Virus record (IMG/VR): IMGVR_UViG_3300046616_000185
Location: 1 to 41,023 of that record
Origin: a virus
DNA length: 41,023 nt
Reading direction: 5' to 3' (one strand)
Of this stretch, positions 14,263 to 38,148 are shown piece by piece. Within the stretch, counting starts at the first letter, position 1, and each line of letters opens with the position of its first letter. The notes under the pieces are model-generated. The model saw only the letters and a program-made list of their open reading frames with translations. It had not been told where the DNA came from and made no database searches. The translations under genes and the position numbers were made by a program.

Positions 14263-14355
14263 GTGACGAAGTGACGATTTGAAGGTCACTTCTGGAATCC
14301 CTATAGAGCTTCTTATGTGATTGTGGAAGTTGGGTCTAAATCGTCACTTCGTCAC
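14263..14355. repeat. 93-bp inverted-repeat element, copy A
   Basis: Bounded by a perfect 18-bp inverted repeat: GTGACGAAGTGACGATTT (14263-14280) and its complement (14338-14355). Each arm contains GTGACG twice, 8 bp apart. The centre holds AATCCCTATAG and TTCTTATGTGATT. Copy B (38056-38148) is the same length and about 80% identical by hand alignment. Both stand directly upstream of an early motif. Possible roles: two-operator promoter, replication initiator array, or a structured RNA. Confidence 0.85.
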
Positions 14356-14447
14356 TTCAGGCAGGTCAGCGGGGGTGTTGCGCTGTCAGCCTTCGCGCTG
14401 TGCGTCACTGCTACCGCCCGGGGCTATGTACGGCCGCGTGAGGGCAC

Positions 14448-14485
14448 GAAAAAGCCCCGGTGGACCAGGGAGGCCTACCGGGGCT
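14448..14485 (-). terminator. Rho-independent terminator after the 153-aa gene
   Basis: On the minus strand AGCCCCGGT and ACCGGGGCT form a 9-bp stem followed by TTTTTCG. A textbook site, 27 bases after the stop at 14512. Confidence 0.9.
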
Positions 14486-14511
14486 GTGAGGGGCTGAGAC
14501 GGGCGTGCAGG

Positions 14512-14973
14512 CTACTGCATGAGGTCATCACGGGGGCGCAGCGAGTCGGGAGGGTTGTGGTACGCCCGGATCATCTCGTGCCGCAGCTCGTCAGCCTGGT
14601 TGGCCGAACCCTCGATGCCCATGCGGATGCCCTTGGGCGCTTTGTTGATCTCGGGGTCATTGAGACTGTCACGCTGCAACTCGGCGCGCGCCCGCAACTC
14701 CGTCAACGCCACCCGCAGACCCATAGCCACATACGGGACCAGGTCAGCGGGAATGGTGACGTCACCAGCGGGGACGGGGTCGACCCGGTCCGCTTCCTCA
14801 ACGAGCCGTGCAGCGTGCTTCCGCGCGTCCGCTGGGCTCATGTCTGAACGCAACGGCCGGTCACGATCCTGCGTGTCGTCGACCCAGCCGTTCACGGTGA
14901 CGTAGTTCTTGCCGCTGGACCTCCACCCCCGGACTTCGCCGATTCGGTAGCTGCGCTTTGCCTTGCGTGTCAT
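14512..14973 (-). CDS. Hypothetical protein, 153 aa
   Basis: ATG at 14973, SD AGGAGGGG seven bases upstream. The N-terminus is basic (MTRKAKRSYRIGEVRGWRSS) and followed by a beta-hairpin-like GKNYVTVNGWVDD. The middle (SDMSPADARKHAARLVEEADRV) is helical, and the C-terminus is hydrophilic. No recognised domain; it may bind nucleic acid. It stands alone between two terminators, downstream of the 347-aa gene. Confidence 0.8.
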   Translation of the reverse strand: MTRKAKRSYRIGEVRGWRSSGKNYVTVNGWVDDTQDRDRPLRSDMSPADARKHAARLVEEADRVDPVPAGDVTIPADLVPYVAMGLRVALTELRARAELQRDSLNDPEINKAPKGIRMGIEGSANQADELRHEMIRAYHNPPDSLRPRDDLMQ

Positions 14974-14994
14974 CTGAACCCCTCCTAGTGGGAA

Positions 14995-15022
14995 GGGGCC
15001 CCGGGATCGTTCCCAGGGCCCC
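14995..15022 (-). terminator. Terminator after the 347-aa gene
   Basis: GGGGCCCCGGGA (14995-15006) pairs with TCCCAGGGCCCC (15011-15022) with one mismatch. It has no U run on the minus strand, like the tail-less terminators reported in the phiC31 early region. Confidence 0.7.
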
Positions 15023-15035
15023 GTGTGATGGTGCG

Positions 15036-16079
15036 TCAGATAGTGGCCTTGATCATCGCGCGCAGGCCTTCGAGCGCGTTTTCCAGCTCCGTCCGAATCG
15101 CTTCCTTGGTCTCGGCGCTGGCAGCCTCGAAGTCATCGACGCTCGCGCTGCTGACGTCAGAGAGGATCTTCGCAGCTACCTGCCGGACGCGCTCGTCGGG
15201 GGTGCTCTCCGGGGTGCCTTCGCCCTCTCCTTCGCCGTTGCCTTCGCTGTCGCCCTCACCGGTGCTCTCACCGGCCGGAAGCGCCTTCTTGGCTTCGTAC
15301 TCCAGCCGCTTGCGCTCCGTGGTACCCAGAAGCGAGGCGCCGTAGATGTTGGCAACCCACTCAGAGGCAGGCTTGTCGTCGGGCTTGCCGGTAAGCACCT
15401 TCGCCATGATCTCGCGACGCTCAAGGGCAATCGGGGTGTCCTCGTCCAGCGAGCGCAGCCACTCGGCCCGCACGTCGCTGCGCTGGTCCTGCACGCTGCG
15501 CATGAGCTTCTTGAGCGCCGTCTTCGTGTCGTAGTTATCCTCGAAGTGCTCGCCAGCCTCGCGCAGCAGCGCGCCGGAAGCCTTCTTCGCCGGGTCGGTG
15601 TCGCCCATCAGGTCCGGCTGTCCGGCCTTGTTGGGGATGCGCAGCCACATGTCGAGACCGATCGCCGCAACGTCCTTCGCCAGCGTCGACGTCTTGAGAT
15701 GGGCCTTGACGCCGTCGGCGACCTTTTCGGCGCCCAGGGTGACAAGCTCCTGTACGCCTTCGTACTGGTCCCAGGTCTTGACGGGCACGCCCTCCACCAC
15801 GTCCTTCTTGACCACCTCAGCCTTCGGCGCAGGCTCCGCCGCAGGCTTCAACGGGTCAACCTTCGCGGTCCACGCGGCGCGCTTCTCGGTCTTGATCTTG
15901 ATGGAACCCTTGCCGCTCAGCGAGGAAATCAGCGACTCAGTTTCCGCGTGCAGTTCAGCCACCGCATCCGTGGTGTCGCTGCCGTCCGCCACCAGCGAAG
16001 CAGCGCGCTCGATATTCGCGTCGATCTGCTCGATTACGGCCGTTCCCTGGTCCGTGGTCACGTCGTTGCGGTCGTTCAT
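15036..16079 (-). CDS. Hypothetical early protein, 347 aa
   Basis: The ATG at 16079 was chosen because GGGAGAGAAC lies just upstream; an upstream ATG (16118) sits in the promoter hairpin. MNDRNDVTTDQGTAVIEQID opens a long acidic helical region (to about residue 60). A middle domain (about 100-200: TWDQYEGVQELVTLGAEKVA ... LDMWLRIPNKAG) contains conserved-looking aromatics. A low-complexity Gly/Glu linker (GEGDSEGNGEGEGEG, about 275-295) leads to a C-terminal helical tail. No enzyme motif. It is the largest unassigned early protein and has the strongest-looking promoter in the genome (TTGACA, 18 bp, TACCTT), next to CIR-5. Confidence 0.85.
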   Translation of the reverse strand: MNDRNDVTTDQGTAVIEQIDANIERAASLVADGSDTTDAVAELHAETESLISSLSGKGSIKIKTEKRAAWTAKVDPLKPAAEPAPKAEVVKKDVVEGVPVKTWDQYEGVQELVTLGAEKVADGVKAHLKTSTLAKDVAAIGLDMWLRIPNKAGQPDLMGDTDPAKKASGALLREAGEHFEDNYDTKTALKKLMRSVQDQRSDVRAEWLRSLDEDTPIALERREIMAKVLTGKPDDKPASEWVANIYGASLLGTTERKRLEYEAKKALPAGESTGEGDSEGNGEGEGEGTPESTPDERVRQVAAKILSDVSSASVDDFEAASAETKEAIRTELENALEGLRAMIKATI

Positions 16080-16108
16080 GATGTTCTCTCCCTGGTTGTT
16101 TTCGACTA

Positions 16109-16143
16109 ACAGGGGCAAGGTACCGAAGTGATCTTGCCCCTGT
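16109..16143 (-). terminator. Promoter-embedded hairpin upstream of the 347-aa gene
   Basis: ACAGGGGCAAG (16109-16119) and CTTGCCCCTGT (16133-16143) are perfect 11-bp complements. The -35 and -10 boxes lie in the two arms, so a transcript that starts here (about 16110) lacks the first arm. Only read-through RNA from upstream can fold the hairpin. Confidence 0.65.
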
Positions 16144-16146
16144 CAA
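16117..16146 (-). promoter_or_regulatory. Predicted promoter of the 347-aa gene (TTGACA-18-TACCTT)
   Basis: The -35 TTGACA (16141-16146) is a perfect consensus; the -10 TACCTT is at 16117-16122 with an 18-bp spacer. CIR-5 ends two bases upstream of the -35 box, so repressor there should block RNA polymerase. Confidence 0.65.
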
Positions 16147-16148
16147 CT

Positions 16149-16170
16149 CACCTACGGATTTCCGTATGTG
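16149..16170. promoter_or_regulatory. CIR-5: conserved inverted-repeat operator (class I)
   Basis: Core TACGGATTTCCGTA, flanked by CACC and TGTG; two bases from the TTGACA -35 box on the downstream side. Confidence 0.87.
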
Positions 16171-16171
16171 C

Positions 16172-16606
16172 TCAGGCGGTTTCGTTCCAACGCTTATTCA
16201 GGGCCCAATCAGCGAAGACGGGCCCGACGTAGTACCGGGCGTAACATGCCCCCTTGCCGTTGCTGACCATGATGTACTTCGCGCCCTTTACCGTGCTGGT
16301 GTGGATCTCCACGGTAAGCCCGTGCTCATACGCTGCCGACACGTGCCACGCCACATACTCGGCCGAGACGGCCCGGTACTCAAGCATGGTTGCGCCACCT
16401 CCGCGCGCTGTGTAGACCTCGTTCGGGTCAACCGTCACCTTGTTCATGTTTCCTCCGTGGAAGGCCAGCCAGCACTTCGCGTCGGCGTGCGCCATGGCCT
16501 CGGTCAGATACTCGGGGGACTCAAACAGGATGTCGAAACCGTCGGCGTAGCTGTTGCGGACCTGCGAGAAGTACTTACCGCACAGCTTCTTAACCTCGAT
16601 GAACAT
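16172..16606 (-). CDS. Hypothetical protein, 144 aa (paralogue of 2051-2476)
   Basis: ATG at 16606, SD GAAGGGGCGGG about 9 bases upstream. Residues about 30-47 (SPEYLTEAMAHADAKCW) match the 141-aa protein at 2051-2476, and the leaders and operator/promoter layout also match. The rest is different: a beta-rich C-terminal half (EYVAWHVSAAYEHGLTVEIH ... GKGACYARYYVG). A Cys-containing core is present but no catalytic set is clear. Function unknown; the shared N-terminal module may be a binding domain. Confidence 0.82.
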   Translation of the reverse strand: MFIEVKKLCGKYFSQVRNSYADGFDILFESPEYLTEAMAHADAKCWLAFHGGNMNKVTVDPNEVYTARGGGATMLEYRAVSAEYVAWHVSAAYEHGLTVEIHTSTVKGAKYIMVSNGKGACYARYYVGPVFADWALNKRWNETA

Positions 16607-16676
16607 CCTGCCCGCCCCTTCGTTGCCTCTGTTGTTGTGTCCTCATCTTGGGGTACGCAGGGCCGTCGGCGCAACC

Positions 16677-16698
16677 CACCTACGGATATCCGTATGTG
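16677..16698. promoter_or_regulatory. CIR-6: conserved inverted-repeat operator (class I)
   Basis: Core TACGGATATCCGTA, flanked by CACC and TGTG. As at CIR-1, GG and then TTGCGC follow on the minus strand. The surrounding bases GCGCAACC are identical at both sites. Confidence 0.87.
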
Positions 16699-16721
16699 CT
16701 CAGCGCGCCAGCGCAACGCAG

Positions 16722-16763
16722 AAAAGCCCCCGACCTGCACCTTTACAGTGCAAGCCGGGGGCT
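16722..16763 (-). terminator. Rho-independent terminator after the dNMP kinase
   Basis: On the minus strand AGCCCCCG and CGGGGGCT close a stem with an inner TGCAC/GTGCA helix, followed by TTTTCTG. It starts six bases after the kinase stop. Confidence 0.9.
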
Positions 16764-16768
16764 CGGGC

Positions 16769-17353
16769 CTAGAAGAGAATCGCGCGCTGGAGCGTCGCCA
16801 CGTCTTTGTCGTTGTAGATCACTGCGTCCGTCGGGTAGTTGTCTAGCTCTGTCTCGCTGGTGTGGACGACCATCGCCGCATGCTTGCCGTACTGGTGGTT
16901 TGGGTTGGCCATGTGCGCCAGCGGTCGGATGATCCGCACCATGCGGAAGCCACGAGCGCGCAACATGTCCGCCTCATTTTGGTAACGGACGTCGGTGACC
17001 ACCACGGGCAGGTTCCAACGCTCAGCGCCCGCAATCTTCCGCGAGGCGACGCGCACCCAGTAATCAGCGTCGAATTCCCGCTGTGTCTGCCCGATGCGCT
17101 GGAGCATGGCGCGCACCTCCGGGTAGTAATCCTTTGCGTACTCCCACCCAACGTCGTTCACGAGCGCGCTGAGCCGTACGTGGAGACGCTGTCCGATGAC
17201 TCGGCCCGCCGGTATGAGCGGGTCAATGCTCAGTGCCATCTCTTTCAGCGGGTCGGCGAAAGCGATGCGGGTATAGGCGCGCTCGCGCACCAAGAAAGCT
17301 GCGGCAGTGTCTTTGCCGGAACGGGCCTTGCCGATCAACGCGATGTTGTACAC
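16769..17353 (-). CDS. Deoxynucleoside monophosphate kinase, 194 aa
   Basis: The P-loop GKARSGKDT (residues 8-16) follows a short strand (MYNIALI), as in T4/phiC31-type dNMP kinases. Later segments RIAFADPLKEMA, QTQREFDADYWVRV and VVTDVRYQNEAD are typical of this family, which phosphorylates dNMPs to feed replication. GTG start at 17353. The only SD (AGGGAGGG) is locked in the stem of the hairpin at 17361-17391. First gene of the early region after the lysis genes, 38 nt from early motif g. Confidence 0.88.
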   Translation of the reverse strand: MYNIALIGKARSGKDTAAAFLVRERAYTRIAFADPLKEMALSIDPLIPAGRVIGQRLHVRLSALVNDVGWEYAKDYYPEVRAMLQRIGQTQREFDADYWVRVASRKIAGAERWNLPVVVTDVRYQNEADMLRARGFRMVRIIRPLAHMANPNHQYGKHAAMVVHTSETELDNYPTDAVIYNDKDVATLQRAILF

Positions 17354-17360
17354 GAAAAAA

Positions 17361-17391
17361 TCCCTCCCTCAGGGGTTACCTGGGGGAGGGA
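17361..17391 (-). terminator. Promoter-embedded hairpin with U run; sequesters the kinase SD
   Basis: On the minus strand TCCCTCCCCCAGG-TAACC-CCTGAGGGAGGGA is followed by TTTTTT and then the GTG start. It has a 12/13-bp stem. It is both an intrinsic terminator in form and a block to the SD. RNA started at motif g would begin in or near its first arm, so the full hairpin should form mainly in read-through RNA from the lysis genes. Confidence 0.8.
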
Positions 17392-17408
17392 TAGCGAGTC
17401 GGTTACCA
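17392..17408 (-). promoter_or_regulatory. Early-promoter-like motif, copy g
   Basis: TGGTAACCGACTCGCTA on the minus strand, between the lysis genes and the dNMP kinase and directly before the hairpin at 17361-17391. It marks the late/early boundary. Confidence 0.77.
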
Positions 17409-17411
17409 GCG

Positions 17412-17744
17412 CTACACGAGGGGCTGGGCCTCCGGCAGGGGAGACGCAGGGGCGGGCTCGGGCGCCGAAGGCTGCTCCGCAGTGACGTCAGACAGTGCCA
17501 TGTACGGGACGCCTAGATCCTCAGCCACGGCCGCAGTGTCAGCGACGAGCTTCTCGTAAGAAATGCCGTGCTTCGCGAGGTATCCGGACACGAAGGTGAG
17601 GACAGCAGTCACGCCGCCCTCAATGAGCCCGCGCACGTCGCTGGGCACGCTGTGGCTGAACACATGCGGAGCAGCGATACCCGCGATGATGGTGGACCCT
17701 GCCGCCGCAACAGTCGCCGCCGTTACCTTGCCGGAAATGGCCAT
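17412..17744 (-). CDS. Putative holin, two membrane segments, 110 aa
   Basis: ATG at 17744 with SD CAGGAG six bases upstream. Hydrophobic segments: residues about 9-28 (AATVAAAGSTIIAGIAAPHV) and 41-58 (GLIEGGVTAVLTFVSGYLA). The tail is a Pro/Ala-rich hydrophilic stretch. This layout and its place after the endolysin suggest a holin that makes the inner-membrane hole. Holins vary too much in sequence for proof. The next gene upstream is a second small membrane protein, so the two may act together. Confidence 0.7.
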   Translation of the reverse strand: MAISGKVTAATVAAAGSTIIAGIAAPHVFSHSVPSDVRGLIEGGVTAVLTFVSGYLAKHGISYEKLVADTAAVAEDLGVPYMALSDVTAEQPSAPEPAPASPLPEAQPLV

Positions 17745-17748
17745 TCGT

Positions 17749-18057
17749 TCACTCCTGATTTCTGCGCTCTAGGCGCGGGTGTGGGTCTGTCCGCTGGAAT
17801 GCGGATACAGCGTGCTCGGTGGTGTGCGACGCCTGCCATTCGCGTACCTCTGACAGGTCGTCGCGGAGTCCGTCTAGGCGCCCGTTCAGCTCACCGATGG
17901 CGCCGACTACTGCGTCCCGTGTGAGCGCTCCCTCTTCGCGCGCTGCACCACGAGATCTACGCGCAGCCAAGTAGGCAGGGCCGGTTGTAACCAGCGAAGC
18001 GCCAATGGCTCCAATGACCCACGCCATACCAGGGGCAATGCTCGTTCCTTCAATCAT
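17749..18057 (-). CDS. Small membrane protein with coiled coil, 102 aa (lysis cassette)
   Basis: ATG at 18057. Residues about 9-32 form one membrane segment (APGMAWVIGAIGASLVTTGP), followed by basic residues (AARRSRGAAREEG) and a helical coiled-coil-like stretch (GAIGELNGRLDGLRDDLSEV). One-membrane-segment proteins of this form beside actinophage endolysins are often called holin-like or annotated DUF2746. It could be an antiholin or second holin. It lies between endolysin and putative holin, 47 nt from motif h. Confidence 0.7.
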   Translation of the reverse strand: MIEGTSIAPGMAWVIGAIGASLVTTGPAYLAARRSRGAAREEGALTRDAVVGAIGELNGRLDGLRDDLSEVREWQASHTTEHAVSAFQRTDPHPRLERRNQE

Positions 18058-18081
18058 GGGAATGCCCTTGCGTTCGGGTGC

Positions 18082-18115
18082 CCGACCCGCTATCAGGGAC
18101 TAGATAGCGGGTCGG
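18082..18115 (-). terminator. Hairpin terminator overlapping early motif h, after the endolysin
   Basis: CCGACCCGCTATC (18082-18094) and GATAGCGGGTCGG (18103-18115) are perfect 13-bp complements with an 8-nt loop. No U run. The motif supplies the first arm, so RNA starting from the motif would lack that arm, as at 17361-17391. Confidence 0.75.
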
Positions 18116-18121
18116 ATACCG
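18105..18121 (-). promoter_or_regulatory. Early-promoter-like motif, copy h
   Basis: Minus-strand CGGTATCCGACCCGCTA, 47 nt before the 102-aa membrane protein. It shares the GGTATCC variant with copy c and is half of an inverted repeat. Confidence 0.65.
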
Positions 18122-18127
18122 GCCTGG

Positions 18128-18826: not shown

Positions 18827-18838
18827 ACAGATTTCTCC

Positions 18839-19360: not shown

Positions 19361-19369
19361 GGCGGACTC

Positions 19370-22189
19370 CTAATAGGCGTAGGCAACCTGGTTGAATTGC
19401 TGTTGCACGTTGAATGCCCCTGGGTCAGTGACACCGGCCGGTAGCACTTCGCTTACGATCTCGCCAGCGCTGTGCGTGCGCGTCAGACTGCCCACCAGGG
19501 ACACAACGGCCGTGGACCAACCGGAAGTGCTGGCGTTCACCCCACCGACTAGCACTTGTTCGGCGTTGGGGGTTCCCTGCCCGACTACCAGGACCGTTCC
19601 GGCGGGTAGCTGTGCGCCCAGCGGGCTGAGGTTGTCGATGCTCCCACCAGCGTTCAGCGTGAGTGCCGTTGTGCCGCTCGGGTGGCTTCCACTCAGCGTC
19701 GAAAAGAGCGCGCCGAACTCCCCGTAAACGCGCGGGTCGACCGGGCTGCACTGCAACGTGACCCACGCTTCGTTGTTGCTGTCCATGTCCCACTGGATTT
19801 GCTCGACAAAGCAGTCGACAGACACCAGGGGAGCGCCGGGCGGGCGCCGGTTGATGCGCACCCGAGTGCCCAGCTCTAGGCCCAGCAGCACGGGCCACAG
19901 CGCCGTATTGGCCGACGGGTGCAGCTTGATGCTCTGCACGCGCGTAAGCGGCCCCTTGTACCGGGACACGAAGTAATGCGAAGCATCCTGGCACTCAAGC
20001 GCGCTCGTCGTGTTGAGAGTTCGCGTCATGGTGCGCGTGTAATAGCTCGCGATACTCGCGCTGTCCTTCGCCGGAAATATCTGCCCGGTCGACTGCTGCG
20101 TCACCTCAACCTCGTTGGCCAAGTGCGTGCTGTCAAAGTCGAGTTGCAGATCCTCGTACGGCAATTCGCCAGCGCCGTCGCCGAATGTCCATGCGGGCGT
20201 CAGAGCGTTGTACCGGTAGCCACGGCCCCGGAATGTGACGGTGCCATCGCCAGCGATGAAATGCTCACCATTCTCGGTGGTCGCCACGTTGTTCAGGACC
20301 GTCACGGGGTCGGATCCAGTTATGTCCGTAGCTGGGCCCATGGACGTCGTAAGGCTCGTGCCAACGTTGCTCGCGCCGGTATAACCCGCATAGCGCAAGA
20401 TCCGCGAGTATCGGGCACTTGCCGACTCACCCTGACACGCTGTGGACCACGCGCTGTATAGCCCGGCGATCTGCGTGGAATTCAGGTACGAGGGAACCTC
20501 AGCGGCGTAGGCAAGGTCCCCGTAGAACGTGTAATTGGCGTTGCGGGTAGGTGCGACCCAATATGCGCCGATGTTGTCATGCATGCCACCCAGCGGGATC
20601 ACGCCCGGGAGTGTGGTGCTGGTGACAGCGCCGTCGACCGCGATTTGCGCAGCCGTGCCATTCACGCCGAAGGCAACCAGGTGCCAATTTCCGTCAAGCG
20701 CTGATTTACCGCTGTCGAGGATCGTTTGCGAGCCGCCGAACACATCAGTCTTGAACTTGATACGCCCGTCCGTGTCGACGTACACGTGAACGGCGTTGCG
20801 AATACCGGGGACCGAGAACGAGTCACCGACACCGTTGTAGGAACTCCAGACATACGCGCCGTCAGTAGGTGCTGTGGCCCCCGCGTAGCGAAAGGCAATC
20901 ACGCGCGTCCAGCCGCTACCGGTCGAGACAGGCCCAGCGATTCCGGCGCCGTCGAGCGAAACCAGCGTGGCAGGGCCGAAGGCAGAGACACCGGCACTGA
21001 GCGGGCGCGCGTTGACGACAGTCTCATCCGTACCGAGGTAGGTGCCGGTTGTCGAGTTGCCGAACGTCCAATTGCCGCTACCGGCCTTGCTGTTGATCAG
21101 GCTCGCCGACGTCTGCGCACCCGTCGAGTCTTGGACGAACGTGGCCCCTGCCGCCTCATTGAGTCGGTAAACGAACCGAGGGTTGAGTGTGTTTAGTTCC
21201 TCCGCAAACACATGATCCAGCGTGACCTGTGACAGCAGCGCGAAGGCGTCCACGGCCGTGGGGGACACCTGGCCGTACGTGCCACCTTCCGCCCACTGGG
21301 TGGGCCATCGCTCCGTGAAGCCACTGAAGATGGGGTACCAGGTGCCGGGCGCTGTCCACGTGCTCGCTGCGGATGCCTGCTCAACCTGCCATGCGTCAGT
21401 TTCGATCACACATGCGCCCGGGGCCACGGCAGTCAGCCGCAGACCAACACGCATGCCGTAGATGTTGACCGTGGTCGGCGCCGTCGCTGTGACGGTTACC
21501 TGAGTCCAGCCGTTGACCGTCGAGCTACCGGTGAGCGTCGATGCACTGCCATTCGTGAACGAAAGGGCGCCAGCGGAGTCAGTGAAACCGATGATTGCGC
21601 CGACACCGGGGGAGACCCCGTCGGTAACGCAGCGGACGCGCGCCTGAAACGTGAACGTCTTACCGGGTCGAACGGACGGCGTGTCAGTGTAAGCGATGCG
21701 GCTATTCGAGCCTGCGCCGTTGGCTACAGAGAATCGGAAAGTATTGGTGCCTTGGAACGCCGACAGTGGGGTGGTCGGGTTGAAGATGAATCCGCCCGTG
21801 CCATCGGTCGACGACGATATGCCGAACGATGCCGGAATGGTGCCGGGGGTGAAACCTTCGCCGCCGGTTGCGACACGTGCATCGAGTAGATTCGCCGTAG
21901 GTGGCCACTGGGCACGGCGCCGGTAAGGCTGTAGGGGCAGGATCTTCCCGCCGTATGGTCCGCTGGCGTTGGTGGGGTCAAGCACGCCATCCTGCGAGCC
22001 TAGGACGATCTGGTACTCGCCAGCCTGAATCTGGTCCAGCTCATACTGTTTGCCACGTCTAGCGCTGGCCTGCGACAGCGTACGGTCAACCAGGTTCACC
22101 CATTTGGAAGTTGGGATCGAAGCGCCCGCAGCACTCCACGCGGGCCCCCAAAGTTCCTCAATCACGGGATAGTTGGGATTCAGTGCCAT
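19370..22189 (-). CDS. Large minor tail protein with LamG-like domain, 939 aa
   Basis: It follows the tape measure, the usual place of distal tail/baseplate genes. The N-terminal part (to about 300) is beta-rich with carbohydrate-module character (FTFQARVRC ... NGWTQVTVTATAP). Residues about 425-580 look like a concanavalin/LamG domain (WTRVIAFRYAG ... GRIKFKTDV ... NWHLVAFGVNGTAAQIAVDG). The C-terminal 300 residues resemble tail-hub/siphovirus ReqiPepy-type minor tail modules (VTVLNNVATTENGEHFIAGD). It probably contributes to host wall binding. ATG at 22189 with SD GGAGGG. CIR-7 lies just before it. Confidence 0.82.
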   Translation of the reverse strand: MALNPNYPVIEELWGPAWSAAGASIPTSKWVNLVDRTLSQASARRGKQYELDQIQAGEYQIVLGSQDGVLDPTNASGPYGGKILPLQPYRRRAQWPPTANLLDARVATGGEGFTPGTIPASFGISSSTDGTGGFIFNPTTPLSAFQGTNTFRFSVANGAGSNSRIAYTDTPSVRPGKTFTFQARVRCVTDGVSPGVGAIIGFTDSAGALSFTNGSASTLTGSSTVNGWTQVTVTATAPTTVNIYGMRVGLRLTAVAPGACVIETDAWQVEQASAASTWTAPGTWYPIFSGFTERWPTQWAEGGTYGQVSPTAVDAFALLSQVTLDHVFAEELNTLNPRFVYRLNEAAGATFVQDSTGAQTSASLINSKAGSGNWTFGNSTTGTYLGTDETVVNARPLSAGVSAFGPATLVSLDGAGIAGPVSTGSGWTRVIAFRYAGATAPTDGAYVWSSYNGVGDSFSVPGIRNAVHVYVDTDGRIKFKTDVFGGSQTILDSGKSALDGNWHLVAFGVNGTAAQIAVDGAVTSTTLPGVIPLGGMHDNIGAYWVAPTRNANYTFYGDLAYAAEVPSYLNSTQIAGLYSAWSTACQGESASARYSRILRYAGYTGASNVGTSLTTSMGPATDITGSDPVTVLNNVATTENGEHFIAGDGTVTFRGRGYRYNALTPAWTFGDGAGELPYEDLQLDFDSTHLANEVEVTQQSTGQIFPAKDSASIASYYTRTMTRTLNTTSALECQDASHYFVSRYKGPLTRVQSIKLHPSANTALWPVLLGLELGTRVRINRRPPGAPLVSVDCFVEQIQWDMDSNNEAWVTLQCSPVDPRVYGEFGALFSTLSGSHPSGTTALTLNAGGSIDNLSPLGAQLPAGTVLVVGQGTPNAEQVLVGGVNASTSGWSTAVVSLVGSLTRTHSAGEIVSEVLPAGVTDPGAFNVQQQFNQVAYAY

Positions 22190-22212
22190 TGGTTACCCTC
22201 CGAAGAGGGGAG

Positions 22213-22234
22213 CACATACGGAAATCCGTACGTG
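22213..22234. promoter_or_regulatory. CIR-7: conserved inverted-repeat operator in a hairpin (class III)
   Basis: Core TACGGAAATCCGTA inside a 34-bp near-perfect inverted repeat with GGGGAG/CTCCCC arms (22207-22240). It lies between the tape measure and the minor tail gene, in the middle of the late operon, where a stoperator or weak terminator would act. Confidence 0.87.
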
Positions 22235-22244
22235 CTCCCCATGA

Positions 22245-25200
22245 CTAGCGCTTAGCCTCGATCCACGTGCGGGAGTTGCGCCCGCCGAAGCGATACATTT
22301 CCCGCTGGATTACGTCCCGCAGGTCCTGGTCCGTGCGCACGGATCCATGAACCTCAATGTGCACCTGATGGACCACGGTCGCAGCAGTCGAGCCGACAGC
22401 CGAACCGCTCAGCGTGGGTGCGTCGGTACCACCCTGCACGGCGGACATGGCAAGACGCTGGGCAGCGCTCCGCGCATCGGCGTTCCCGCTGTCCATACCG
22501 TTCACCAGGCCAGCGACTACGAAGCGCCCGATTTCATGGAACAGACGCGAAGGGGAGTGGATACCCAACGCCTTCTTGATCTGCTTTTCCATGCTCTTGG
22601 CTATCTTCAACATCTGCTTATCGATGGCCTTTTCCTGGGACTGGAGTCCCGCAATCAGGCCCTTCGCAGCGTTGATGCCAGCGCCGTACATGCCGTCCGC
22701 GACGACCTTACCGGCGGAGTTCGCCGACGTACCGAGCTGCGTTTGCATCGTGTTGAGCTGTTGTAGCTGACCAGCGTTGGCGCCGAGTAGCGCTTGCGCG
22801 GTAGCGCCGCCCTGGTCGACACCGGCCGATGCAATCTGCTCAATCAGCGCCGACGAAAGTCCACGCTTCTTGAGTTCCTTTAGCTCGTTCGCGAACTGCG
22901 TTGCAGCCTGTACCTGGTTCTGCATGTTCGCTATGACGTCGCCAGCAGTGAGGGAAGCGCCGTCAGCCTGCGTCTGCATGACCACCGAAGCGCCCTGCAT
23001 GATGCCGCTGGCGATGCTGTCCCGCTCGTCGGTCCATTCCTTCTGAACGGCCTTCAGGCTGGCCTGCGCCGCCTTCAATCGCTTCGCGACGCTGTCACGC
23101 TGCTTAGCCAACTTCTCTAGCTGCACGCCCTCCCGCTTGACGTACGACTCAAGATGAGAGATGGCAGACATATGTGCCTTGATCCACCCGCTGTGACCCT
23201 TGCCAGCCTTTGTGCCCAGCATGTCAGCGAGCCGGTTCCGAGCCTGTATGAGCTGGGTCTCGGTTTTCTTGATTGCGCTTTTCACCTGCGCCTGCGAGCC
23301 GGTTAGCCCGTCAACCAGGCCCTGGTTTACCCAGATGCCAAGCTGTCGGAATACCTTGGACGGCGAGTTGATCCCAAGCTCACTCTTGAAGTGCCGCACC
23401 ATGCCCTTAGCGGTGCCGCGTACGGCGCCGTGAGCTAGGTGAGCATTCTGAGTGACACCCAGCGCGATACCCTCGGGGATTGCCGCGCCGACCTCATCAC
23501 GGAAAACCTTGGACGGGCTGTTGATGTGCAGGATTGATTTAGCCGTGTCCTTGAGGCCGCTGGCCACATTCTTGACAGCGTCCCACGCGGCGCCCGCCAT
23601 GCCTTCAATGCCGTCGATGAGTCCCTGTATCAGGGCCTTACCGGCGCTACTGAGCGCGGTTCCGAAATCGGCAGTGACGCTCTTGATTGTGTCCCAGATA
23701 TCGCTGAAAGCCTGCGAGACGAGCTTCTTTACGTCCTCCCATGCCTTACCCCAGTGGCCCGTTATGACGTCGGTGACCACCGCGATGAGGTTCATAATGT
23801 AGTGCATGCCGAACTGCGTCGCGCCAGAGATCACATCCCATGCGATTTTCACCGCACCTGAGATGAGGTCCCAATAGACTTTCATCGACGTCCACAGAAG
23901 CCCAAGTTGGACTTTGACTATGCTGTACCCGACCTTGACGTAGCGCTGAATTTCCTTCCATAGCAGCGCCCAGGTCTGCTTAATCTCCGTGCTGTGGGAC
24001 TTCCACCACGTAGTGAGATCCTTGAGCCGTGCCTTGAGCCACGTAAGGACGTTGGCGTTAAACCATTTCACCAACATCTGCACGGCCTTGACAGCGAAGG
24101 CCCAAGCAACGTGGAACGCGTTAAGCGTTGCCTTCCATGTGGCCTTGAATGCGTTGGCGACGGCCGGAATGTTCGTCTTGATCCAGCCCCACACTTGCTT
24201 CCAATGCACAATCAGCAGCGCGAGGCCAGCGACTAGCGCGACGATTCCGGCGACGATCCACGTAACTGGGTTGGCCAGCAGCGAGTCAGTGAAGGACCAC
24301 GATGCGATGGACGCAGCCGCAAGGCCGATAGTCACGGCGCCCAGCACGGCGCCGAACGTCTTCAGGTAGACGCTGTGTGCCTGAAGGAACGGGAGTCCCT
24401 TGGCCAGCACGCCGACAAACTTAGTGGCGTAGGGGAGTAGCTTTTGCCCAAGGGTGATTCCGATGGCCTCGACGCTGCCCTTGAATTCCGCCATGCGCTG
24501 GTTGAACGTCTTCTGAACGTCCGCCCAGCCCTCAATTTCCTTACCGCCGTCCTTGACGTGTTTGCCGATGCCATCAACGTTCTTTTTGAACGTGGACATG
24601 TGGCTACCGGTGAGCATGAGGGCGCCCATCATCGACTTAGTTCCGCCGACCATGGTGGACAGCGCGCCGATATACGTCTTCTTGGACCCGCTAGCCTTTT
24701 CTAGCTCACCCTTGAAATCCTTGGAACTCTTGGCAGCCTTTTGCAGGGTCTTGATGAACACATCGCCGCCGGGTCCCATCTTGTGCTTGATGGCGTCCGT
24801 GAGCGTGTCCAGCGTCGCAGCGAGACCCTTCTTACCCAGTTCCTTGGAAACCTCGTTGGCGTTGAGACCCAGCCCTTTCATGGTGGTCGCGGCCTTGGCC
24901 GACGGGTTAGACAACTGGCCGATCGTCTGCCGCAGGTAGGTAGCGGAAACGCGCGCATCCGTACCCTGTGACGTCATGGTGGCCATGGCGCCGAGCACTT
25001 CGTTTAGCTTGACGTGAGCGGCGGCAGCCACAGGGAGAATGCCGGACATGCTGCCCGCAAGGGCCTCAAGGTTGGTCTTGCCCTCAGCCTCCGTGCCAAC
25101 CAGCGCGTTCATCACGTCAGTCGTGTTCTGAGTGTTCTTCGCTGCGTCCGTGCTTTGCAGGTTGTATGCGTTCATGGCCGTGGTCACAGCGTCGGTCACC

Positions 25201-29323: not shown

Positions 29324-29330
29324 GGGTCAC

Positions 29331-29579: not shown

Positions 29580-29609
29580 GCGTTCCTCTCAGGTAGGGGA
29601 GGCGGGGGC

Positions 29610-29631
29610 CACATACGGATTTCCGTATGTG
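29610..29631. promoter_or_regulatory. CIR-8: conserved inverted-repeat operator in a hairpin (class III)
   Basis: Core TACGGATTTCCGTA within GGGGG/CCCCC arms (29605-29636), so the site could fold in RNA right after the capsid stop. Repressor binding and partial termination could both act here; capsid, the most abundant product, lies just upstream. Confidence 0.87.
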
Positions 29632-29657
29632 ACCCCCACCGTTAGATCAGCTCAGGT

Positions 29658-31104: not shown

Positions 31105-31125
31105 AACCGGGCGGGCAGCGAGAGG

Positions 31126-31147
31126 CACGTACGGAAATCCGTATGTG
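31126..31147. promoter_or_regulatory. CIR-9: conserved inverted-repeat operator
   Basis: Core TACGGAAATCCGTA flanked by CACG and TGTG, 14 bases after the protease stop and 130 bases before the capsid ATG. No good -35/-10 pair is seen immediately next to it, so a stoperator role is more likely than a promoter. Confidence 0.87.
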
Positions 31148-31160
31148 GCCAACGCGAGGT

Positions 31161-33100: not shown

Positions 33101-33264
33101 TACTCATCAACCGCCCAGCCCACAACCAGAATCAGTGCGCCCAGCGCTGCCAGACCGGCCGTGGTACTCCAACGCCACGCGGCATCAACCAGCACAAAGG
33201 CGCCGACTAGGCCCAGCATGTTCGCCGCGAGTGAGCGGGATAGCTTGCCCGCTAGCTTTCTCAT
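33100..33264 (-). CDS. Small membrane protein between terminase and portal, 54 aa
   Basis: ATG at 33262-33264, SD GGGGGGAT six bases upstream; a longer frame to 33372 lies in the terminase and was rejected. A basic start (MRKLAGKLSRSLAAN) precedes two hydrophobic stretches (MLGLVGAFVLVDAAW and AGLAALGALILVVGWA). Positively charged N-terminus plus two short helices suggests membrane insertion. An unusual place for a membrane protein; function unknown. Confidence 0.72.
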   Translation of the reverse strand: MRKLAGKLSRSLAANMLGLVGAFVLVDAAWRWSTTAGLAALGALILVVGWAVDE

Positions 33265-33274
33265 GGGATCCCCC

Positions 33275-34795
33275 CTAAAGGTCTGCCCACGAAAAGAACT
33301 GGGGCTCCGGTACGGTTTCTGGTTCCTGGCACGCCCGTTCCAACGCCATGACAGCGGAAACGGCAAGGTCAATCTTTCGAGGCGAACCCTTAGCGTCCTT
33401 ACTCAGGCGCGAGCCGCGCGAATCCGTGCGCAGCACACAGTTCGACAGATGGCGCGCAAGACGCGGGTCGCCGCTATGAGTCAGCGTCTTGTTCATGACG
33501 GCCTCGTAATAGCGCTGCGTCGCCGGAACCATGCGGGCGGGGGACTGCGGGAACTCCACAATCGGGAGTCCCTCAGATTCAAGGATTTGGTACGTGCGTG
33601 CCCAGCGGAACGGGTCGCAGACAATCTCTCGCACCTGCCAGCGGCGGCATGCCTTACGGATCTCGTCTTCAACGTCGAAGATGGGCACTGACCAGTCTTG
33701 CCCGGCGTCCGTCGGTTTCTCCCACGCTGCGACTACGTCAATGTGTGGCTTGGCATCCTCGCCCTGCGGGCAGGTCACCACCACAAGCGCTGTGCTGTCG
33801 TTGTTGAACGACCCATCGAAGCCTAGGACCACCTCGGTACCCGGCTCGATGCTCTCAGCGTCGCCAGCGCACTCGTCCCAAGCACCTGCGGGCAGCCAGG
33901 CTTGCGCCGTCGACACCCACTGATTCATCCGTTTGGTTCGGTACTCCGCTTCCGGGGTGCGCAGCACGGAGGAATGGAAATCCTCTTCGCTGACAATGTC
34001 GTTGAAGCCCGGATTCGCCGCTGCCCATACCGCCGGGTCTTTGTGGTCGGCGCCTTCGGGCGCTCCCCACCACTCAAAGTAGAATGCGGGGTCTACGATT
34101 TCGCCCCGAATGATTTTCTCGCCGTATTGGTACATGCCGTAACACAGGCTGTCGCCGCCCGAGCTATCCGACTTCACGCCAGCGGTAGTGATGCCCACCA
34201 TCATCGGTTCGACACGGGCGCCAGACGCGAGGCTCATGACGTCCCAAAGCTCACGGGTGGGCTGCGCGTGGACCTCATCGGCGATCGTCAGATGCGGGTT
34301 TAGTCCCTCTTTGGTGAAGGCTTCCGCCGACAGCACGCGATACACAGACCCGGTCGCCGGTAGCTCGACAGCGTCCCGGTACACGCGGAAACTGTTAGCC
34401 ATCTCTGGCGCCATCTCAATCATCTTCTTGGCCGTGCCGAAAACGATGCGCGCCTGTTCCTTGTCAGCGGCGATCGAGTAGACCTCACCACCCCGGGGGC
34501 CGGACACCAGCCCGAAGATAGCCAAGGCTGCGCCGACAGCGCTCTTGCCGTTCTTACGGGGCATGCCCACGAGCGCTTGCCGGTGCTTGTAACGGCCATC
34601 AGGGCGCCGCGCGAGCAACCGGCCGAACAGTTGGCGCTGCCAGTCCCGGAAGACAAGCAACTCGCCGCTGGATCCGCCCACGGAGTCTTTGGTGATCCGT
34701 AGGAAACTCTGCGAAAAGTCAACAAAGTCCGCGCCGTCGCCGCGCTCTACAGCGTCAGCCGTGACCGGGGTCAGCAGATAGGGCGTGCTGCCCAC
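33275..34795 (-). CDS. terL: Terminase large subunit, 506 aa
   Basis: ATP-driven packaging motor and nuclease. Walker A GMPRKNGKS (residues 77-85), Walker B LTIADE (Asp173-Glu174), coupling region GITTAG (201-206) and the RNase-H-like nuclease start VVLGFDGSFN (Asp327). The N-terminal FRDWQRQLFGRLL adenine-binding Q motif is visible. Start GTG at 34795, seven bases after GGAGG that is the downstream arm of CIR-10. It follows the small subunit by 27 bases. Confidence 0.96.
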   Translation of the reverse strand: MGSTPYLLTPVTADAVERGDGADFVDFSQSFLRITKDSVGGSSGELLVFRDWQRQLFGRLLARRPDGRYKHRQALVGMPRKNGKSAVGAALAIFGLVSGPRGGEVYSIAADKEQARIVFGTAKKMIEMAPEMANSFRVYRDAVELPATGSVYRVLSAEAFTKEGLNPHLTIADEVHAQPTRELWDVMSLASGARVEPMMVGITTAGVKSDSSGGDSLCYGMYQYGEKIIRGEIVDPAFYFEWWGAPEGADHKDPAVWAAANPGFNDIVSEEDFHSSVLRTPEAEYRTKRMNQWVSTAQAWLPAGAWDECAGDAESIEPGTEVVLGFDGSFNNDSTALVVVTCPQGEDAKPHIDVVAAWEKPTDAGQDWSVPIFDVEDEIRKACRRWQVREIVCDPFRWARTYQILESEGLPIVEFPQSPARMVPATQRYYEAVMNKTLTHSGDPRLARHLSNCVLRTDSRGSRLSKDAKGSPRKIDLAVSAVMALERACQEPETVPEPQFFSWADL

Positions 34796-34800
34796 CAGGT

Positions 34801-34822
34801 CACCTCCGGATATCCGTATGTG
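34801..34822. promoter_or_regulatory. CIR-10: operator overlapping the terL Shine-Dalgarno (class II)
   Basis: CACCTCCGGATATCC ... TATGTG fills the whole gap between the small and large terminase genes. On the minus strand its end is CCGGAGGTG, so the SD of terL lies within the operator. Confidence 0.88.
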
Positions 34823-35287
34823 CTACGCCCCAGCCTTTTTGGCTAGGAAGTCTTCGAACGCGTTTCGCGCCTTCACCTCAGCGAGGCCCATACGCGTGCG
34901 ATCGGTAGGCGTCAGACCCAGCGCGCTGAATAGCTTCGCAATCTCGGTCTCAATGCTGCTGAGCATGCCGACCAGCGGGTTGGGGTAGGCGTAAGCCTTG
35001 TCCGTGAAGAGCACCATTTCGCTGCGCGAGAGTTGCTCTTTCATCTGCGCGCGTCGGTCGACCTTTTCGCAGAGCAATTCAAGGGTGGGTTTGTCGGTCT
35101 CAGCGAGCCAAACGGCACCCTCAACGACTCGCCGGTATATCTCAGCGCCGGACGGGCCCAAATGGGCGGGAACATCCGTAGCAACAGGCACCAGCGCTAC
35201 AGTGTCCGCTAGGGCCGGTAGTGACTGCTTTCCAGGGTTTCCGAGCTTCCGCTTACGCTCTAGTGGCTGCGGGGGAGGGCCGGGCAT
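34823..35287 (-). CDS. terS: Terminase small subunit, P27 family, 154 aa
   Basis: Recognises the packaging site. MPGPPPQPLERKRKLGNPGK is the typical P27 opening (basic residues followed by NPGK). ATDVPAHLGPSGAEIYRRVV, ETDKPTLELLCEKVDRRAQM and LGLTPTDRTRMG are the expected conserved blocks, the last being the very typical end motif. ATG at 35287 overlaps the end of the HNH gene by 35 bases, tying the two together. Confidence 0.93.
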   Translation of the reverse strand: MPGPPPQPLERKRKLGNPGKQSLPALADTVALVPVATDVPAHLGPSGAEIYRRVVEGAVWLAETDKPTLELLCEKVDRRAQMKEQLSRSEMVLFTDKAYAYPNPLVGMLSSIETEIAKLFSALGLTPTDRTRMGLAEVKARNAFEDFLAKKAGA

Positions 35288-35843
35288 CTACACGGGCCCC
35301 CTTCCTCACGTTGCATGCCAGGTGCGAGCACTGGACGTTGCCAGGCTCGTGGTTTCCGCCTCTCGACAGCGGGATTACGTGGTCAAGGCTCACGCTCATC
35401 GGGGCGGGCCAGCACAGCGACCGGTCAACCGGCGCATGGCACAGGCCACAAGTCCACCTGTCACGCTCGAATATCGACTCGCGCGTGAAGACCTCGTACC
35501 GGACGCCGAACTTCTCGGCACGACGCTTGTAACCACCTGCACGCGGGCGCCCACGGTCAAGGGCAGTCATCTGACACTTGCGCGAACAGAAGAGCGGACG
35601 CCGACCACGCTGGTTAGGTGCGGGCATTAGATACTCAGAGTCACACTCAGCGCACAAGGCCACCGGCTGAACGGTCGACCATTCCTCGAAGCGGCTGATT
35701 TGGTCCGCCTCGCGCTTGGCTACTTTCCGTCGCTTTTCGCCTGCGCGGCGCTGGCACCGGTCAGAGCAGTATTTCCGGTGTTTGTGGGCGCTTGGCTGCA
35801 TAACTACGCCGCAATGCGGGCAATTCTCGCTCAGGCCCCCCAC
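35253..35843 (-). CDS. HNH endonuclease next to terminase, 196 aa
   Basis: Two zinc sites (CPHCGVVM ... CSDRC and CAECDSEYL ... CSRKC) precede an HNH nuclease (CGLCHAPVD, SLDHVIPLSRGGNHEP, NVQCSHLACNVRKGA). Known: HNH proteins encoded next to terminase take part in cos cleavage and packaging (HK97, and many others). The GTG at 35841-35843 was chosen, with AAGG upstream; in-frame starts up to 35969 (for example ATG 35933) cannot be excluded. If cos lies in 35844-35997, the short start is right. Confidence 0.85.
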   Translation of the reverse strand: MGGLSENCPHCGVVMQPSAHKHRKYCSDRCQRRAGEKRRKVAKREADQISRFEEWSTVQPVALCAECDSEYLMPAPNQRGRRPLFCSRKCQMTALDRGRPRAGGYKRRAEKFGVRYEVFTRESIFERDRWTCGLCHAPVDRSLCWPAPMSVSLDHVIPLSRGGNHEPGNVQCSHLACNVRKGARVDARPSPAATRA

Positions 35844-35997
35844 CCCTCTAACCTTCGGAAATGTGCGGAGCCATGGGAGCTGGGTCCCCGCGATGATCTT
35901 CGCTGGACTTTTACCCACCCCCCGTCCTCGCATACATATGCAAGGTTGGATGCATGGCCATGCAGTCACAGCGAGGCAGGGAACACACCGCTAAGTT
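35844..35997. other. Gap between two HNH genes; candidate cos region
   Basis: 154 bp with no clear gene, between HNH and HNH/terminase genes. It contains runs such as CCCACCCCCCGTCC, a GGGTCCCCGCGATGATC segment and TGCATGGCCATGCA-like short palindromes. Packaging sites of phages with this gene order lie beside the terminase and the partner HNH gene. No cut site can be read from sequence alone. Confidence 0.35.
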
Positions 35998-36336
35998 CTA
36001 CAGAGAGTCACGCTTGCGGGCATTGCAGGCACGGCACAGCACACGCAGGTTGCTGCGCTCATGGGTGCCACCGTGGGCAAGCGGCACGATGTGATCAATG
36101 GTCAGATCGTGCGTCCTGTGGTCGGGCACGCCGTAGCCAGGACACCACCCACCGTGCACTGCTCTGTGCTCTGTCACTACCTGCTTAGCCACTGTTCGGT
36201 ATGCACTGGTGTACCCACGCTGGCTAGCACTACCACGCTGCTGCTCACGCTGGGCCATGTACTTAGCCTGGCATGCGGCACAGCGAGAAGGGTTGGTAGT
36301 CAGTCGCCTGCACACCAGACATGGGCGCCGAGCCAT
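35998..36336 (-). CDS. HNH endonuclease, 112 aa
   Basis: Zinc ribbon CLVCRRL ... CAAC at the N-terminus and a complete HNH site: DLTIDHIVPLAHGGTHERSN and LRVLCRACNARKRDSL. This is the compact type often found beside actinophage terminases. Start ATG 36336 (a GTG four codons earlier is possible). Two HNH genes in a row before the small terminase is uncommon; one may be the packaging partner and the other a homing-type gene. Confidence 0.88.
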   Translation of the reverse strand: MARRPCLVCRRLTTNPSRCAACQAKYMAQREQQRGSASQRGYTSAYRTVAKQVVTEHRAVHGGWCPGYGVPDHRTHDLTIDHIVPLAHGGTHERSNLRVLCRACNARKRDSL

Positions 36337-36338
36337 GG

Positions 36339-36641
36339 CTACTGCCACCCTTCCGGTAGCTCCTGTACAGGGTCGGGTACAGCCACAGGGGCGGGCTCCG
36401 GGGTGCAGGTGCAGTCAGGCAGCGCAGGACTAGAGGGGCCAGCGCATAGGGCCTGATGGACCAGGGAGCCTAGGTCAGCAGCGATGGCATGTGATCCGCA
36501 GGCGTATACGGGCACCGTGGTATTGGTGGCATCCGCCGATTCTCCGCCATGCTGGACAGGAATCGCTGCTAGCTCAGACTCCGTCGGTCGCCGAATCCAT
36601 CCGACTAAAGCTGAGCTACCGCATGCTCCGCAGGCTGGCAT
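36339..36641 (-). CDS. Hypothetical protein with Cys-rich start, 100 aa
   Basis: ATG at 36639-36641, three bases after the stop of the hydrolase gene. Opens MPACGACGSSALVGWIRRPT with a CxxC. Two more Cys lie in VYACGSH and PDCTCTP, which could complete a zinc site. The C-terminal third is Pro/Val/Glu-rich (EPAPVAVPDPVQELPEGWQ). No known domain. Probably a small structural zinc protein in the packaging region. Confidence 0.7.
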   Translation of the reverse strand: MPACGACGSSALVGWIRRPTESELAAIPVQHGGESADATNTTVPVYACGSHAIAADLGSLVHQALCAGPSSPALPDCTCTPEPAPVAVPDPVQELPEGWQ

Positions 36642-36644
36642 AGC

Positions 36645-37142
36645 TCACGCTCCAATCAGTCTGGCAAGGTCACCAGGTGCAACGTCGCCCGGAATTCGCC
36701 CGGGGAAAAGCTCAACGCCAGCGCGCCGGTAACACTCGTCGACGAGTTGGCTACAAATCATGTGGGAAGTGGTCGCTACATAGCGCTCAAGCCTGCGGCT
36801 GTGCAGCAAGCGAGCCTCTGCTATGGCGAGGTAATCCAGGAAACTGTATGGGGTGCCGAGGTACCACTTTGCAGCGGACGTGATTACGGCACGCTGGTTG
36901 TCAGTCAGCGGGAATGCCGACCAGGCGACACGCTTCCGGCCGTCCAGAGCCTCGCTCAGCAGCACGCGGGAGGCTCCGCCTGGTTGGGCCTGAATCACTT
37001 GGCCATCGCCCACGTAGATGAACGCATGCGTGAAGTAACTACCACTGCCTATGGCGCGCTGGCCAGCGGACACAGCGGCGCCAGTGAGCCCGCCAATGCG
37101 GCACAGACCGAAGTCACCAGGCGCGGGGGATTGCGTGCGCAT
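36645..37142 (-). CDS. Permuted NlpC/P60 (YiiX/YaeF-like) cysteine hydrolase, 165 aa
   Basis: The order of catalytic residues (His39 in YFTHAFIYVG, then Cys130 in HMICSQLVDECY) is that of the circularly permuted NlpC/P60 clade, which acts on peptidoglycan peptides or amide/ester bonds. The AKWYLGTPYSFLDYLAI segment is also typical. The ATG at 37142 was chosen because the GGAGG of CIR-11 lies five bases upstream. It may help DNA entry or host-wall turnover. No signal peptide. Confidence 0.78.
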   Translation of the reverse strand: MRTQSPAPGDFGLCRIGGLTGAAVSAGQRAIGSGSYFTHAFIYVGDGQVIQAQPGGASRVLLSEALDGRKRVAWSAFPLTDNQRAVITSAAKWYLGTPYSFLDYLAIAEARLLHSRRLERYVATTSHMICSQLVDECYRRAGVELFPGRIPGDVAPGDLARLIGA

Positions 37143-37144
37143 GG

Positions 37145-37166
37145 CACCTCCGGATATCCGTATGTG
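37145..37166. promoter_or_regulatory. CIR-11: operator overlapping a Shine-Dalgarno (class II)
   Basis: CACCTCCGGATATCC ... TATGTG, whose minus-strand end GGAGGTG is the SD for the hydrolase ATG at 37142. It stands between the tRNA cluster and the late operon. Confidence 0.87.
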
Positions 37167-37237
37167 GTGTGTCGCGAAAAGCGCTCCGCAGTCAGGGACT
37201 AGACCAGGCGTTTCCTGTTTGTGTGGCTGCGAAGCAG

Positions 37238-37311
37238 TGCGGGTAACAGGATTCGAACCTGTGACTTCCTGGTCCCAAACCAGGCGCCCTAACCAACTGG
37301 GCCATACCCAC
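37238..37311 (-). tRNA. tRNA-Pro (UGG)
   Basis: 74 nt cloverleaf: acceptor GTGGGTA/TACCCGC, anticodon stem CCTGG/CCAGG with loop TTTGGGA (anticodon TGG), and T loop GGTTCGAATCC. Discriminator A; no encoded CCA. Reads Pro CCA codons. Confidence 0.95.
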
Positions 37312-37325
37312 GCGCGCTTGCGCCG

Positions 37326-37408
37326 TCCGCTGAGAGGGATTCGAACCCCCATGCACTCACGTGCGGCAGGTTCTAAGCCTGCTGTGTCTACCGTTCCACC
37401 ATCAGCGG
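37326..37408 (-). tRNA. tRNA-Leu (UAG)
   Basis: 83 nt, class II with a long variable arm (CGCACGTGAGTGC). Acceptor CCGCTGA/TCAGCGG is perfect. Anticodon stem GCAGG/CCTGC with loop CTTAGAA gives TAG. Reads Leu CUA codons, which are rare in high-GC hosts. Confidence 0.95.
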
Positions 37409-37486
37409 GCAACCACTGCGCGGAATCCCCTTTAGCTCAGGGACCCGTCCACGTAGTGGTGCTGTACGGCCCCCGTAGGGACTGCG

Positions 37487-37558
37487 CTGGCACGGCTGGA
37501 TTCGAACCAGCAACTTCCGGATTAACAGTCCGGCGCTCTACCGTTGAGCTACACGCCA
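37487..37558 (-). tRNA. tRNA-Asn (GUU)
   Basis: 72 nt. Acceptor TGGCGTG/CGTGCCA, D arm TAGCTCAACGGTAGAGC, anticodon stem CCGGA/TCCGG with loop CTGTTAA (GTT), T arm CTGGTTCGAATCCAG. Discriminator G. Confidence 0.95.
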
Positions 37559-37815
37559 CTGGTAGCAGGCCATTCCGCTACGCGGCACCGCTACTTGGGG
37601 GGTGGTGGCATTTCCTGCGCGAACGCAGCCCCTTACCAAATTGGCGACCCGCCCGGACTGCCGCCTTTCACGGCGACGTGCACGCGCCCGGAACGGGAAG
37701 ATTTAGGGTTACTCGCCGCCCGTTCGGCACGATGACTAGTCGTGCGAAGCAGGGCCGGTTTCACCCAAGGCCACCCGTCATCTCCCGGTCAAGGGCACTT
37801 CGGGGTCTGCCTGCG
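37559..37815. other. 257-bp gap inside the tRNA cluster
   Basis: No gene or canonical tRNA found. It has one very stable UUCG hairpin on the minus strand (CTGCG-TTCG-CGCAG near 37625-37638) and a TTTGGTAAGG segment resembling a tRNA D arm, which may be a decayed tRNA. A stop-rich short frame is seen; nothing else is supported. Confidence 0.4.
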
Positions 37816-37900
37816 CGCCGCATCCAGGATTTGAACCAAGGACTTCCCCGCACCCATGGGCCCATGGTGGGGGCGCTCTACCAGACTGAGCTAATGCGGC
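37816..37900 (-). tRNA. tRNA-like gene with an enlarged anticodon arm (isotype unclear)
   Basis: 85 nt. Acceptor GCCGCAT/ATGCGGC and D arm TAGCTCAGTCTGGTAGAGC are intact. The anticodon arm (37846-37873) is 28 nt in place of 17 because it contains CCATGGGCCCATGG, a 14-bp palindrome. The T stem has a mismatch (CTTGG against CCTGG). It may be a decayed tRNA, a tRNA with an insertion, or one with an intron-like element. Loop readings could give CAT or GGG, so no isotype is assigned. Confidence 0.6.
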
Positions 37901-38029
37901 GTAGAGCCCTGGCGCTGCAACCGTGGGAGAGAGGCACGGGAGCACGCAGGGCCGTTCATGGGTCGGGTCCGCAGTCCGCCGTGTCGGTGACCCTTGATGC
38001 GCGGGAACAACCGGCCCATACCATATATC

Positions 38030-38046
38030 TAGCGAGTCGGTTACCA
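38030..38046 (-). promoter_or_regulatory. Early-promoter-like motif, copy i
   Basis: TGGTAACCGACTCGCTA on the minus strand, 129 nt upstream of the first tRNA and beside copy B of the 93-bp element. It probably drives the tRNA cluster. Confidence 0.73.
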
Positions 38047-38055
38047 AGCGGGGGA

Positions 38056-38148
38056 GTGACGAAGTGACGATTCGGAGTGCACTTCGGCAATCCCTATAGG
38101 TTTTCTTATGTGATTCTGAGAAGTAGGGGTAAAACGTCACTCCGTCAC
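38056..38148. repeat. 93-bp inverted-repeat element, copy B
   Basis: Same length as copy A and about 80% identical; arms GTGACGAAGTGACGATTC and an imperfect complement at 38131-38148. The central AATCCCTATAGG and TTCTTATGTGATT are conserved while positions between them vary, a sign of selection on specific blocks. The motif before the tRNA cluster stands 10 bp away. Confidence 0.83.

Follow-up and report, generated by a model that had tools for sequence, protein, structure and literature searches.

Paired inverted-arm elements of phiC31-type Streptomyces phages as candidate replication origins

Phage P4 carries two cis sites, ori1 and crr, and its alpha protein binds repeats. In the SaPI origin, where the Rep protein is an SF3 primase-helicase, iterons are located on either side of an AT-rich region. 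In the record of the Streptococcus thermophilus phage Sfi21, the 3' end of the primase gene carries an annotated origin of 302 bp. The sole strong inverted pair in this origin consists of perfect 18-bp arms made of GTTAC units with an 8-bp period and has a span of 107 (score 18 versus 6-8 in shuffled sequences); the protein encoded beside it has SF3 (DUF5906) and Pox_D5 domains. PMC6356513, citing Foley et al. 1998, describes the 302-bp element as an independent origin that is activated by infection and acts as phage-encoded resistance. In the archaeal plasmid pRN1 the origin is a stem-loop of 100 bp (stem 21 nt, loop 58 nt), which lies 3' of the gene of an SF3 primase-helicase and is functional when relocated (PMC4234260). 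The P4 alpha protein is described in the same paper (PMC4234260).

The DNA analysed here (the window) is the whole 41,023-nucleotide stretch of IMG/VR record IMGVR_UViG_3300046616_000185, whose phiC31-type early genes, c repressor and serine integrase identify it as a phiC31-like Streptomyces phage. Positions 1-127 are identical to positions 40897-41023, thus the true length is approximately 40.9 kb, and the assembly is circular or terminally redundant with an arbitrary start point of the record. Late genes (terminase, portal, protease; within 15000-38000) share 35-39% identity with phiC31, less than most early genes (41-68%), which makes the genome a mosaic. The minus strand encodes a gp9a-type primase-helicase (7786..10239) with Toprim, D5_N, P4-family SF3 helicase and C-terminal Pox_D5 winged-helix domains, the gene 1 exonuclease (13365..14207), a homologue of the c repressor (15036..16118; Pfam Phage_Repressor_c) and the serine integrase (38783..40489). 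Four tRNA genes (Pro, Leu, Asn, Trp) occupy 37237-37900 at the head of the late region. A family of near-palindromic 22-37-bp repeats, matching in both orientations, has nine sites in the window (3313-3349, 7712-7743, 11016-11059, 16672-16703, 22209-22246, 29605-29636, 31126-31150, 34798-34822 and 37145-37181); these repeats are probably repressor operators of this phage. Two further stretches of about 100 bp, 2474-2571 and 16604-16706, form an imperfect repeat with 78% identity.

The initial annotation had described two elements of equal length (93 bp) and about 80% identity, not explained by any gene and each next to an early motif, and its coordinates were accurate: in self-comparison of the window the alignment gave 74 identical positions out of 93 (79.6%). 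The similarity extends beyond the elements (14245-14373 versus 38029-38166, 78%, E ~1e-25). Copy A (14263..14355, minus strand) is a candidate origin of replication, separated by 55 bp from gene 1, which it directly precedes throughout the phiC31 group as well; the c repressor gene is on its opposite side. It consists of a left arm (14263..14280; GTGACGAA GTGACGATTT, two GTGACG units with an 8-bp period), a 57-bp middle (14281..14337; 56% A+T, containing AATCCCTATAG and CTTATGTGATT) and a right arm (14338..14355), which is the exact reverse complement of the left one; the 18-bp inverted repeat (GTGACGAAGTGACGATTT) is perfect, as had been claimed. Copy B (38056..38148, minus strand), the second candidate origin, has the int/HNH genes on one side and the tRNA/late region on the other, with the integrase gene upstream. 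Between its arms 14 bp pair, one mismatch included, and a few bases further in also pair; its middle (38074..38130) is 54% A+T. These middles stand out from the window as a whole, which has 37% A+T, and AATCCCTATAG and TTCTTATGTGATT are retained in both copies. Both elements are intergenic: copy A is flanked by gene 1 (start at 14207) and an ORF at 14512-14973, copy B by tRNA-Trp (37815-37900) and an ORF at 38283-38786. A scan for inverted GTGACG-unit pairs 70-115 bp apart returned the two copies alone for the window, and nothing for ten shuffled versions of it.

With at most two mismatches, the early motif GGTAACCGACYCGCTAG occurs at nine places on the minus strand of the window. One (GGTAACCGACCCGCTAG, 14245..14261, minus strand) abuts copy A on the gene 1 side, another (GGTAACCGACTCGCTAG, 38029..38045, minus strand) lies on the tRNA/late side of copy B at a distance of 10 bp. 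At both copies the motif is separate from the element and, with respect to transcription, downstream of it. In self-comparison the elements matched only each other and the early motif. A CIR-like repressor operator was rejected as an explanation, since the elements, judged by the same comparison, lack the short palindromic repeat of the genome.

The window element resembles the Sfi21 origin in having perfect 18-bp arms, two short units per arm, an 8-bp period, an AT-rich middle and a cognate SF3/Pox_D5 protein. The repeated short units are arranged as inverted arms around the AT-rich middle, and the SF3 helicase with its C-terminal winged helix is encoded in the same genome. In contrast, the helicase gene of Sfi21 has a single copy at its 3' end, with GTTAC instead of GTGACG units and a longer span (107). 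Because the window element does not lie directly 3' of the helicase gene, we class it as a variant and not as a standard Sfi21-type member. The stem-loops of pRN1 and of the Bordetella phage BIP-1 are likewise about 100 bp (PMC4234260), and folding of the window element gave a stem-loop (single-strand folding z -7.2 for copy A and -2.5 for copy B). In these systems, however, the authors did not describe iterons, the primase is of the archaeo-eukaryotic and not of the Toprim type, and there is one copy (PMC4234260). By description, P4 is similar in having two cis sites and an alpha protein that, like gp9a, combines a Toprim primase, an SF3 helicase and a winged helix. The SaPI system shares the SF3 primase-helicase, the fold of gp9a matching that of the SaPI5 protein (7ola), and by description also the iterons on both sides of an AT-rich region, but has a single origin.

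The initial annotation had proposed a search for the element in other Streptomyces phages, and such a search did reveal the pair in phiC31, phiBT1 and others. A two-arm pattern matched 54 viral stretches, phiBT1 included, and many contigs contained two elements. In phiC31 one element (21668-21758) separates c from gene 1 and the other (40447-40537) separates int from tRNA-Thr; the arms are less perfect than those of the window. The pair occupies the same two places in phiBT1, Euratis and TG1, and the records of these four phages have no annotated feature at the element positions. Rowa, Shaeky, phiSASD1 and Dubu have non-GTGACG arms and a mutually similar element pair, again at the same two places. 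The pair was present at c/gene 1 and at int/tRNA in 9/9 named relatives checked at both sites (the phages listed above and AbbeyMikolon). A de novo search for inverted arms placed an element ahead of gene 1, at a distance of 50-120 bp, in most further relatives, but found none upstream of this gene in G063. Three genomes with GTGGTG-type arms (G059, G061, G074) have the gene 1 copy only, copy B being missing. The arm type (GTGACG, GTGTAG, GTGTYG and others) is common to both copies of one genome, and the copies mostly cluster by genome, with a mean identity of 73% within and 42% between genomes. In ten phages the distance between copies A and B was 0.41-0.50 of the circular genome, which means that forks may start at two nearly opposite points.

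No phage matched the copy A region in a near-identity search, and a more sensitive phage search returned Euratis only. The pattern matches in the genome collection were partly noise: many MAG contigs (Steroidobacter, Phycisphaerae, a betaproteobacterium) with dispersed GTGACG repeats appeared unrelated, several of 12 exact matches (L001, L006, L012) had no second arm, and L024 was a chance match within an ORF. One record (G051, IMGVR_UViG_3300046690_000279, 81716 bases; loci L188 and L196), about twice the usual length, contains four elements and two primase-helicase genes; either this is a fusion of two related phages, or the assembly is chimeric.

In distant phages with GTGACG arms a D5/SF3 primase-helicase gene has its stop codon 0-42 bp from the element (L018, L025, L030, L035, L040, L068, L093, L096, L148 and L170). 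Of the viral records that contain the element and reach 20 kb or more (36), 31 have a P4-family primase-helicase; the other five comprise a 20-kb fragment, a chance match within an ORF, L054, which has a Prim-Pol/DUF5906 gene 189 bp from the element, and two unexplained records. No known primase-helicase was found in the long element-bearing records G023 and G027. Among records chosen by terminase, the strict pattern occurred in 4/10 with a primase versus 1/15 without, that one being a fragment, and in four more of those with a primase the element is present but its arms are of another type. Relatives of gp9a were also collected irrespective of the element; one with inverted arms and the right span was detected 3' of the gene in 18/41 outside the phiC31 group and in 0/37 within the group, compared with 2/291 control stretches. 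These counts suggest that the usual place of the element is 3' of the helicase gene, and that the phiC31 group moved it. The type of the N-terminal primase varies among the element bearers, the D5/SF3 half is common to them, and the central TATAG box is present also in unrelated phages where the element is 3' of a gene. The 3' flanks of gp9a relatives (L335-L375) have many different arms (GTGGCG, GGACAC, GTTAC, GTGAAC) with periods of 8-11 bp, and represent a wide set of candidate origins, largely unmarked.

In a model of gp9a residues 361-817 (mean pLDDT 84) the sequence RKKTNKG (787-793; codons at 7861..7881, minus strand) is at the hairpin, or wing, of the winged helix, and the closest solved structures are SF3 primase-helicases including the SaPI5 protein. 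Residue 791, at the predicted tip of the wing, tracks arm type: in the phiC31 group it is Asn in 28/31 phages with GTGACG-like arms versus 0/14 with other arms, the arm classes being assigned by eye. The Fisher p-value of 4e-9 is too small, because the phylogenetic tips are related and not independent. The three exceptions are AbbeyMikolon, G035 and G081. Parsimony counted 8 changes for the arms, 10 for the residue and 11 jointly, showing that arm and residue changes coincide imperfectly. Rowa, G056, G086 and G088, all with GTGTAG arms, have the wing R-x-R-x-A-K-G-M in common; G077 also has GTGTAG arms, yet its wing is different. The wing RVRTS[RK]GQ is common to Shaeky, Shady and G089, which have GTGTCG arms. 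Asn791 as a universal rule was dropped, as distant element bearers do not have it.

On the basis of sequence comparison, we consider it highly probable that both copies are origin modules for replication, to which the gp9a primase-helicase of the phage itself binds. The suggestion of the initial annotation that a replication protein may use the element gained support from the association with D5/SF3 genes, from the match to the Sfi21 origin and from the arm type tracking a gp9a residue. We infer that gp9a would bind, melt and fire the module as an origin, and that both copies would be used. It would bind at the paired GTGACG units of the inverted arms, and the wing of its C-terminal winged helix would do at least part of the reading. 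Two SF3 helicase rings, assembled on the arms and facing one another, would melt the AT-richer middle with its TATAG boxes; the primase half of gp9a would then prime and the phage DNA polymerase would extend. In the phiC31 group the module would have shifted from a site just 3' of the primase-helicase gene to its position upstream of gene 1, and most members would have acquired a second module between int and the tRNA/late region.

It is possible, though rather doubtful, that copy A is the sole origin, and that the same protein uses copy B as an accessory site, similar to P4 crr or tying late transcription or packaging to replication; the probability of this version overlaps that of the origin reading, of which it is a part. 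The universal occurrence of copy A, the three genomes with only the gene 1 copy and the position of copy B at the head of the tRNA/late region are consistent with such a division of roles, but where both copies are present they have the same arms and anatomy, which makes their roles inseparable by sequence. An origin or partition-like site read by some phage protein other than gp9a appears quite unlikely: the primase-helicase is the common neighbour across distant lineages and Sfi21 offers a precedent, even if the arm-wing correlation may partly reflect shared ancestry and gp9a is the only early protein so tested.

A promoter framed by two operators, as the initial annotation had put forward, would make the element a transcription switch controlling gene 1 and the late region, with operators in the arms and a promoter in the middle. 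Both copies head operons beside the early motif and the TATAG boxes are conserved, but this reading is improbable because a scan for sigma-70-like promoters found none in either element region, the early motif is downstream of both copies, arm type tracks a primase-helicase residue, and the same element, TATAG box included, lies 3' of primase-helicase genes in unrelated phages. The good single-strand folds would also fit a structured RNA or a terminator. This is very improbable, as the fold consists of the inverted arms alone, a scan found no terminator-like site at the element, and the proposed check for RNA structure gave no match of copy A or B to any Rfam family. A miniature mobile element with terminal inverted repeats is hardly credible: although the element is short, non-coding, present in two copies and bounded in copy A by perfect 18-bp ends, its synteny across phages, the similarity running into the flanks and the lack of any transposase seen alongside argue against it. 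The homologous flanks and the syntenic instead of variable positions likewise argue against classing it as a miniature inverted-repeat transposable element.

To return to the proposed gp9a-bound origin module, its kind is already known, and what is new is the relocation, the duplication and the arm-wing correlation. In the open literature we found no description of the phiC31 replication origin, subscription papers being largely outside that search. Although phiC31 and phiBT1 are standard sources of genetic tools for Streptomyces, their records mark no origin. The element provides short origin candidates for the whole phage group and connects these with the Sfi21 and pRN1 origins. We put forward, as a tentative but quite possible proposal, that phiC31-type phages have two active, nearly opposite origins, and that the specificities of origin and initiator co-switch repeatedly by way of the gp9a wing tip, forming a readable protein-DNA code. 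The matched DNA sites and initiator sequences would be useful for studying how SF3 helicases recognize their origins.
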